Shown: positions 45,997 to 49,770 of the stretch, one piece after another
Layout: every line of letters begins with the position of its first letter
Numbering within the stretch: the first letter of the stretch is position 1
Assembly: GCA_022822005.1 (NCBI GenBank)
Contig: JAJECO010000079.1
Location: 62,001-126,000, forward strand
Source: Candidatus Poribacteria bacterium
Lineage (GTDB): Bacteria > Poribacteria > WGA-4E > PCPOR2b
Direction of reading: 5' to 3'
DNA: 64,000 nt
Made by a program: the position numbers and the translations under genes
Notes under the pieces: generated by a model
Databases searched by the model: none
Seen by the model: only the letters and a program-made list of their open reading frames with translations
What the model was told of the DNA's origin: nothing

Positions 45997-46046
45997 TGCA
46001 TCTCAAAAATATATAATCGATCTGATTCAAAACTGAATATACAAAA

Positions 46047-46379
46047 GCGATGAAGGGGAGGAGTAAGTCGAGCGGTCTTGACAGAGCGGGAAATCCACCG
46101 GCTGAGAGATTTTCCCAAGTAACCTCGACCGAAGGTCGCCCCGGAGCTGCTAACCTGAAAACGCCCCAGTAGGGTTAGCCGGGTTGATGCACGTTACGCA
46201 TACCAATGAGTGCCCTTTTATATACAATGTTTAATCGACACAAGGGAATTGGAGTGGTACCACGGTAAGGACTTTAAGAGGAAGCCCTTCTCGTCTCCAA
46301 GTATATCCTCGAAAGTTGTTCCCTAACATTTTCAATTGGGGAAACTTCTACTGAGGGTTGGAACGGGAGGGCTTTTTTA
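46047..46379 (+). promoter_or_regulatory. T-box leader (tRNA-sensing) upstream of ilvBNC, predicted Val (GUC) specifier
   Basis: Stem I: GGGG(46055)-AGTA(46062)-GTCGAG / CTCGAC(46124)-GAA-G-GTC-G-CCCC; T-box TTGGAGTGGTACCACGG (46249-46265) complementary to TCTCGTCTCCAA; terminator GCCCTTCT...GGAGGGCTTTTTT. Confidence 0.85.
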
Positions 46380-46572
46380 TTGGACATATTTGTAATAGAA
46401 ACCGTTAGGATTGACGACGAGGCTTCCTTGGGGAATTAGATGCAAGTTCTAACCTCGTCGGTGCAAAATCAAAGAAGCCTGTGACTGTTTAATTTTCATT
46501 CAAGGATTTGAACGGATTTTATCCTGAGAAGCCACCAATCCTTGAATCCTTACAAATTTGAAGGAGAGTGTT

Positions 46573-48249
46573 ATGGAACTATCAGGAGCAAACATACTGA
46601 TTGAAAGTCTCAAACAAGAGGGTGTGGAGTATATTTTCGGTGTCAATGGTGGCGCAGCGATGCCAATCTTTGATGCACTCTACGAACACCCTGATGTCAA
46701 GTTAATCATGATGCGGCACGAGCAAGGTGCGTCACATGCCGCCGATGGCTACGCTCGAGCAACAGGTAAGGTTGGTGTTACGCTTGCTACTTCGGGTCCC
46801 GGTGCAACAAACTTAGTGACCGGTATCGCAACCGCCTATATGGATTCCATTCCGATGGTGGCGATCACTGGACAGGTTTTTACCCACCTGATGGGGAACG
46901 ATGCCTTCCAAGAATGTGACGTGATAGGTGTGACTCGCCCGGTCTGCAAGCATAGTTACTTAATTAAAAGCGGTGATGAAGTCGCTGAGGTCATAGCGGA
47001 AGCGTTCCATATCGCTAGTACAGGGAGACCTGGTCCCGTCGTTGTCGATTTCGCCAAGGATGCACAGATCCACGAATCGTTGTTCCGCTACCCAGAGAAG
47101 ATCAATATCCGCAGCTACAAGCCGAAGGTGGAGGGGCACCCGCGCCAGATCGCGAAAGCCGTTGAGTTGATTCACAATGCAGAACGACCGATGATTTATG
47201 CAGGCGGCGGTGTGCCGCTCGCTAACGCGTCTGAGGAGTTGCGTGAGTTGGCAATTAAAACCGGCATTCCGATTACCGTGACACTGATGGGGTTGGGCGC
47301 ATTTCCCGAAACCCATCCGCTGGCAATGGAGATGCCCGGTATGCACGGCTCCTGCTGTGCTAACTACGCATTTACTGATTCTGATCTGGTCATTGCGGTC
47401 GGTGCTCGGTTCGATGACCGTGTTACGGGTGACTTGACAAAATTCGCGCCGAACGCAAAGAAAATCCATATTGACATTGATGCTTCTTGTATCGGCAAGA
47501 ACGTCCCGATTGATGTGCCGATCGTAGGCGATGCTAAACGCGTATTGGCAGAAATGAACAAACTGGTGCATCGTGTGGACATCGAGCCTTGGATGCGCCA
47601 AATTGATGAATGGAAAGAGCAGTATCCCTTTGAGTACCAACAAAACGGTGATAATATCATGCCGCAGTATGTAATTGAGCAGATATATGACCTGTATTCC
47701 GACGCAATCGTCGTTGGGGACGTTGGACAGCATCAGATGTGGGCGGCACAATATTTCAAATTCACCGAGCCGCGTCAATGGTTGAACTCCGGTGGACTCG
47801 GTACCATGGGATTCAGTTTGCCCGCAGCGATTGGAGCGCAACTCGGTTGCCCTGACAAAACCGTTGTCAACATCAATGGCGATGGCTCCTATATCATGAC
47901 GATACAAGAGCTTGTTCCCGCCATCACGATGAAGCTCCCGCTCAAGATCTTCATCATTAATAACATGTATCTTGGTATGGTTCGACAGTGGCAGGAACTC
48001 TTCCACCAGAAACGGTACGCCGCCGTCGATTATCATGATAACCCTGACTTCGCACTGCTCGCTGAGGCTTTTGGGGCAACAGGAATCCGTGTTGAGCGAA
48101 TTGAGGATGTCCGTCCGGCGTTAGAGAAGGCAAAAGGCATCACCGATGGGCCCGTTGTTATTGATTTTATCGTCGATGAAGAGGAAAACGTGTTCCCAAT
48201 GGTTCCAGCAGGTGCAGGACTTGGCGATGTTATACGAGGTTTAGCATAA
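46573..48249 (+). CDS. ilvB: Acetolactate synthase large subunit
   Basis: GVEYIFGVNGGAAMPIFDAL; MRHEQGASHAADGYARATGKVGV; GDGSYIMTIQELVPA. Confidence 0.96.
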   Translation: MELSGANILIESLKQEGVEYIFGVNGGAAMPIFDALYEHPDVKLIMMRHEQGASHAADGYARATGKVGVTLATSGPGATNLVTGIATAYMDSIPMVAITGQVFTHLMGNDAFQECDVIGVTRPVCKHSYLIKSGDEVAEVIAEAFHIASTGRPGPVVVDFAKDAQIHESLFRYPEKINIRSYKPKVEGHPRQIAKAVELIHNAERPMIYAGGGVPLANASEELRELAIKTGIPITVTLMGLGAFPETHPLAMEMPGMHGSCCANYAFTDSDLVIAVGARFDDRVTGDLTKFAPNAKKIHIDIDASCIGKNVPIDVPIVGDAKRVLAEMNKLVHRVDIEPWMRQIDEWKEQYPFEYQQNGDNIMPQYVIEQIYDLYSDAIVVGDVGQHQMWAAQYFKFTEPRQWLNSGGLGTMGFSLPAAIGAQLGCPDKTVVNINGDGSYIMTIQELVPAITMKLPLKIFIINNMYLGMVRQWQELFHQKRYAAVDYHDNPDFALLAEAFGATGIRVERIEDVRPALEKAKGITDGPVVIDFIVDEEENVFPMVPAGAGLGDVIRGLA

Positions 48250-48740
48250 TGACTGAAGAACGACACATCTTTTCCGTACTTGTTGAAAACCGGTTCGGAG
48301 TCCTTGCACGAATTGCGGGACTGTTCAGTGGACGTGGATTTAACATTGACAGCCTCAATGTTGCGGAGACAGACGATCCGGACGTTTCGCACATGACAAT
48401 CGTCACACATGGGGACACGCAGATCATTGAACAGATTTACAAGCATCTGAACAAGTTGATTGATGTCATCAAGGTGACAGATCTCACTGTCGAAAATCAT
48501 GTTGAGCGGGAGATTGTACTGATTAAAGTCTATGCCGAGCCACAGCGACGTGGGGAAATTCTCCAGATTATGGAGATTTTTCGCGCCCATACGATTGATG
48601 TCAGTCCCGACTCTCTGATTATTGAAGTGACCGGTGACGAAGGGAAGTTGAAGGCGGTTGTTGATTTGCTACGTCCCTATGGCATTCAAGAACTTGTCCG
48701 CACCGGCAAAATTGCAATCATGCGCGGGGCCGCAAAGTAA
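48249..48740 (+). CDS. ilvN: Acetolactate synthase small subunit
   Basis: HIFSVLVENRFGVLARIAGLFSGRGFNIDSLNVAETDDPDVSHMTIV; overlaps ilvB by one base (TAATG). Confidence 0.95.
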   Translation: MTEERHIFSVLVENRFGVLARIAGLFSGRGFNIDSLNVAETDDPDVSHMTIVTHGDTQIIEQIYKHLNKLIDVIKVTDLTVENHVEREIVLIKVYAEPQRRGEILQIMEIFRAHTIDVSPDSLIIEVTGDEGKLKAVVDLLRPYGIQELVRTGKIAIMRGAAK

Positions 48741-48777: not shown

Positions 48778-49770
48778 ATGGCAACAATTTATTACGATAG
48801 CGATGCAGATTTTGATTTACTCAAAGAGCGAACGATTGCGGTTATCGGCTATGGTAGCCAAGGGCGCGCCCAAGCATTGAATCTGAAGGACAGTGGTGCA
48901 AACGTTGTCCTTGGGCTGCGCCCCGGCAGCCGTTCTCAACCGGATGCAGAATCGGAAGGATTGACGGTAAAAAGTATCGACGACGCTGCTGCTGAAGCAG
49001 ATGTCGTTCAGATTCTCATCCCGGATGAACAACACGGGGCGGTGTATCGGAATCATATTGAACCGAATCTGGAAGCTGGCAACATGGTGATGGTTTCGCA
49101 CGGTTTTAGCATCCATTTTGGTCAAATCGTTCCGGGAGACGGTATTGATGTGGCGATGATCGCACCAAAGGGACCGGGGCTGCTCGTGCGAGAGGTTTTT
49201 GAGGAGGGCGGCGGTGTGCCGTGTCTCATTGCTATCCAGCAGGATGTAACAGGACATGCCAGAGACCTCGCACTCGCTTATGCGAAGGGGATCGGCGGCA
49301 CACGGGCTGGCGTCATTGAGACTACTTTTCGGGAAGAGACGGAAACAGATCTCTTTGGCGAGCAAGCTGTGCTTTGCGGCGGGACTACCGCGCTCATCAA
49401 AGCTGCTTTTGATACCCTTGTTGAGGCTGGTTACCAACCTGAGATGGCGTTCTTTGAGTGCTTGCATGAGTTGAAACTGATTGTAGACCTAATCTACACA
49501 GGCGGACTCAGCAAGATGCGCAACGACGTTAGTAATACGGCGGAATTCGGCGATCTTACCCGCGGTCCTCGTGTCATTGATGAAGGTGTCCGAGAACGTA
49601 TGCAAACAATTCTTAAAGAGGTACAGAACGGCGAATTTGCACGGGAATGGGTGCTGGAAAATCAAGCGAATCAGCCCGTGCTGCAAGCACTGCGTCGTCG
49701 AGAATCAGAGCTGCAGATCGAAAAGGTGGGGCAAGATCTACGGAGCATGATGAGCTGGCTTGATGAGTAA
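48778..49770 (+). CDS. ilvC: Ketol-acid reductoisomerase
   Basis: [67 protein letters not shown]. Confidence 0.97.

Follow-up and report, generated by a model that had tools for sequence, protein, structure and literature searches.

A class I T-box riboswitch, very probably specific for tRNA-Val(GAC), in the ilvBNC leader of a Poribacteria genome

The leader and the genes that follow it

The window, that is, the whole stretch of 64,000 nucleotides of a Candidatus Poribacteria contig that was analysed, carries a leader for which the next gene 3' on the same strand is ilvB (starting at 46573), followed by ilvN and ilvC (Table 1). That ilvBNC is the target, as the initial annotation had it, is borne out by matches to TIGR00118, TIGR00119 and TIGR00465, all above the NCBIfam cut-offs. 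No leu gene was seen directly 3' of ilvC, where the next open reading frame looks like that of a membrane transporter.

The leader matches the full-length Rfam T-box model RF00230 (window 46041-46301, plus strand) with 102.6 bits (E 1.6e-21), the gathering cut-off being 93 bits, and all the stems are present, which upholds its earlier identification as a T-box. The element had been placed at 46047-46379; the location was right but the true start is 46041. Besides the T-box, the sole other match in an Rfam scan of the window is a tRNA.

Table 1. Positions in the window of the parts of the ilv T-box and of the genes behind it
Feature	Position	Strand	Basis
T-box Stem I	46041..46147	+	Rfam alignment; 44-sequence alignment and pair counts
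AGTA, S-turn/loop E strand of the specifier loop	46062..46065	+	Direct reading; invariant in 44 leaders
Specifier codon GUC (Val)	46135..46137	+	RF00230 register; 44-leader alignment
Stem II with S-turn (UGAA 46156-46159, AGUA 46168-46171)	46149..46179	+	Direct reading and Rfam alignment
Stem IIA/B pseudoknot (GATGC 46186-46190 with GCAT 46198-46201, around conserved CGTTA)	46180..46203	+	Rfam alignment
Stem III (GCCCTT/AAGGG)	46212..46246	+	Rfam alignment
Antiterminator (TTGGAG 46249-46254/CTCCAA 46295-46300) with T-box bulge TGGT 46255-46258	46249..46300	+	Rfam alignment, folding, relatives
Intrinsic terminator that excludes the antiterminator, with T run TTTTTT at 46373-46378	46281..46378	+	Folding, relatives
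ilvB, acetolactate synthase large subunit (regulated gene)	46573..48249	+	TIGR00118, above NCBIfam cut-off
ilvN, acetolactate synthase small subunit	48249..48740	+	TIGR00119, above NCBIfam cut-off
ilvC, ketol-acid reductoisomerase	48778..49770	+	TIGR00465, above NCBIfam cut-off

The elements follow one another as Stem I, Stem II, Stem IIA/B, Stem III, antiterminator and terminator, the order found in the class I transcriptional T-boxes with Stem II gathered in RF00230; what differs from RF00230 T-boxes in general is the poribacterial host, with only two elements per genome. Stem I pairs GC (46047-46048) with GC (46146-46147), is closed by GGGG (46055-46058) against CCCC (46139-46142), further pairs GTCGAG (46067-46072) with CTCGAC (46124-46129), and bears the AGAG and GGCUGA loop motifs in its distal stem. 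In the aligned ilv leaders both sides have changed in 15 of its 21 pairs, 37 cells where shuffles yield 19.4 (none of 500 scored as high), and the share of paired cells, 80% in the true register, falls to 57% or less once the partners are slid. Stem IIB varies likewise among relatives, pairing GATGC with GCATC in most and CGCGC with GCGCG in two.

The codon in the specifier loop and its tRNA

The specifier loop reads GAA-G-GUC-G, where GAA is as invariant as AGTA in the 44 aligned leaders. In the register of RF00230 a single base separates the codon from GAA and another separates it from the closing helix, and it is GTC at 46135-46137 that aligns to this position, as had been proposed from analogy. 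The columns hold GUC in 43 of the 44 leaders and AUC, an isoleucine codon, in the remaining one; L005 and L016 both have GTC. The alignment was also searched for another conserved codon, and the valine reading held, with one relative that has apparently switched to AUC as the exception.

It might be argued that a genuine T-box here responds to a different amino acid (isoleucine, leucine or serine), the specifier being in another frame. The AUC found in place of GUC in the relative G025 can be cited in favour of this view, as can the +1 frame, which is likewise conserved, UCG and UCA being synonymous for serine. Yet the -1 frame is not conserved: the base before the specifier is G, T or C, and since it is free to vary, a glycine reading (GGU) one base earlier is excluded by column conservation. 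The frame is fixed by the Rfam register and, as an internal control, by the genome's other T-box, which lies before pheS-pheT (L002 1501-1785; G000:C13:59218-59502) and displays UUC (Phe) in the same register, thereby validating it. The serine frame was rejected on the column conservation test together with this control; nor does serine suit ilv genes. The bulge, finally, favours valine: UGGU is complementary to the 3' ACCA of a tRNA and is matched by the discriminator A73 of tRNA-Val(GAC), of which one copy is present among the tRNA loci of the genome that were examined, so that the agreement of bulge and discriminator put forward earlier stands. tRNA-Ser is expected to carry G73, a mismatch to UGGU. 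Sensing of another amino acid is, on this evidence, very improbable, and valine, through GUC, is the reading retained.

In G025 the ilvB T-box (L114 1127-1492, G025:C18) has AUC, while its congener G024 (L018) has GUC, an apparent case of a natural specificity switch; specificity within these ilv leaders can move, as this AUC indicates.

The antiterminator and the competing terminator

The attenuator that had been proposed, in which TTGGAG pairs with a CTCC further on and a GC hairpin carries a T tract, is recovered by folding and in relatives, with CTCCAA as the partner strand. The antiterminator, UUGGAG-UGGUACC-...-CUCCAA, has a predicted folding energy of -15.2 kcal/mol, and the overlapping terminator, folded over 46279-46376, one of -41.2 kcal/mol (z = -4.65; none of 200 shuffles folds as well), with z = -7.7 for the terminator of a relative. 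The strand CUCGUCUCCAA belongs to both structures and is therefore the basis of the switch. This mutually exclusive arrangement, with its U run, is conserved in relatives, where the arms of the terminator are kept as its loop and interior vary.

By extension of the known T-box mechanism, uncharged tRNA-Val would make two contacts, by its anticodon GAC with the GUC of Stem I and by the free ACCA at its 3' end with the UGGU of the antiterminator bulge, and the second of these would stabilise the antiterminator and let RNA polymerase read into ilvBNC. With charged tRNA-Val the second contact would be impossible, the terminator would form and transcription would stop. Most likely, then, the ilv T-box would switch on the genes of valine and isoleucine synthesis when uncharged valine tRNA builds up. 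We infer from that same mechanism that the tRNA is bound, that it causes antitermination and that the physiology responds accordingly.

In the genus of the window, the loop of the terminator holds an extra hairpin of about 60 nucleotides (46299-46355), the loop in other families being of a few nucleotides. In one genus of family f4, the ilv T-box has an antiterminator whose apical loop contains an inserted hairpin of about 35 nucleotides, CGGTTTCGG...CCGAAACGTGCTATA (L150 553-660; likewise L151, L152, L153, L155, L157 and L177). Another hairpin, at 46415-46461 beyond the terminator, was rejected as a candidate for a further regulatory element, since members of the genus do not share it; its stretch occurs a single time in the genome. 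A scan upstream for promoters gave no sigma-70-type match, a consensus that may not be that of this phylum, and a terminator consensus scan gave none with its loop limit of 3-8, too short for the terminator with a loop of about 60 nucleotides present here.

T-boxes across Poribacteria and beyond

A guess that the genome was Poribacteria-like proved well founded: the closest named record by IlvB, the Candidatus Poribacteria contig JAJECN010000010.1, has an IlvB 85% identical and the same leader (99.7 bits), and this contig lies in a genome, G067, of the same order as that of the window. The occurrence had been flagged as phylogenetically notable; Poribacteria are indeed concerned, but the case is not isolated, since nearly the whole phylum has a T-box, with a phenylalanine one at pheST in addition. 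At a threshold of E <= 0.001, T-boxes are found in 79 of 85 Poribacteria genomes and in 55 of the 56 good-quality ones, usually two per genome, as in that of the window. Single-contig assemblies figure among the bearers, so this is not a binning artefact.

Could the ilv element be a degenerate, non-functional remnant, or a chance resemblance? Shuffled sequence is predicted to fold as stably as the leader taken as a whole (z = -0.91) and the genus of the window has a longer terminator loop, two facts that would suit such a view. It is hard to reconcile with a full-length Rfam match, with retention on the scale just given, with the compensatory changes and with a switch that is recognisable in the relatives inspected, and we hold it to be extremely improbable. 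Anatomy, conservation, codon register, cognate tRNA and target genes of the ilv T-box are all established here from sequence. Taken together, the anatomy, the conservation across the phylum, the GUC columns and the covariation of Stem I therefore make the ilvBNC leader, with high confidence, a canonical T-box riboswitch of class I that attenuates transcription and is specific for tRNA-Val(GAC).

In the Poribacteria loci examined, the T-boxes have ilvB and pheS as targets. Two deep lineages (G004 and G002) have the GUC T-box before an ilvD-like open reading frame, which we read as ilvD, with a match to ilvB further on. The pheST T-box, with its phenylalanine specifier, is conserved across much of the phylum, and where the register is readable in relatives the codon is UUC; a GTG reading in L178 was a false pattern match, the specifier being UUC. 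In G024 and G025 (family f3) the ilv T-box alone was found and no pheST T-box was detected, the latter seeming to be lost or too weak to detect. That several families have the T-box, and the deep-branching G002 as well, suggests vertical descent within Poribacteria.

In published surveys most T-boxes come from Firmicutes; smaller numbers are given for Actinobacteria, Chloroflexi, Deinococcus-Thermus and Geobacter, in the last at leuA (PMC2494555, PMC3766115). Outside Firmicutes they are few per genome and associated with amino acid genes, as in Poribacteria; these surveys do not list Poribacteria, whereas here two T-boxes are conserved across that phylum. The TBDB database covers 3,632 species (PMC7778990), and a literature search found no paper linking Poribacteria with a T-box. 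The ilvBNC-leuABCD operon of B. subtilis has a single leucine T-box in front (PMC12452182). The likeness is that of one T-box before ilvBNC; the B. subtilis element, however, senses tRNA-Leu, whereas the poribacterial leader has the valine specifier GUC and no adjoining leu gene was seen. IlvB similarity led to 20 named genomes. In this set T-boxes were present in three of the Firmicutes-type metagenome-assembled genomes, an Atribacteria, two deltaproteobacterial genomes and Poribacteria, and none was found in those of Calditrichia, Bacteroidetes, Ignavibacteriae, Aliifodinibius and Nitrospira. With T-boxes in several genomes outside Firmicutes and the range already surveyed, the occurrence in Poribacteria is therefore a modest extension of range, the mechanism being that of textbooks and not new.

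A well-understood tRNA-sensing switch is thus extended to an uncultured phylum. With usually two T-boxes per genome over 85 genomes, Poribacteria offer a compact set in which to ask whether the T-box originated in Firmicutes and later moved to other phyla, or has a more ancient origin. The broader reading, about as likely as not, would if true speak for a system older, or more widely transferred, than the Firmicutes-centred view has it.
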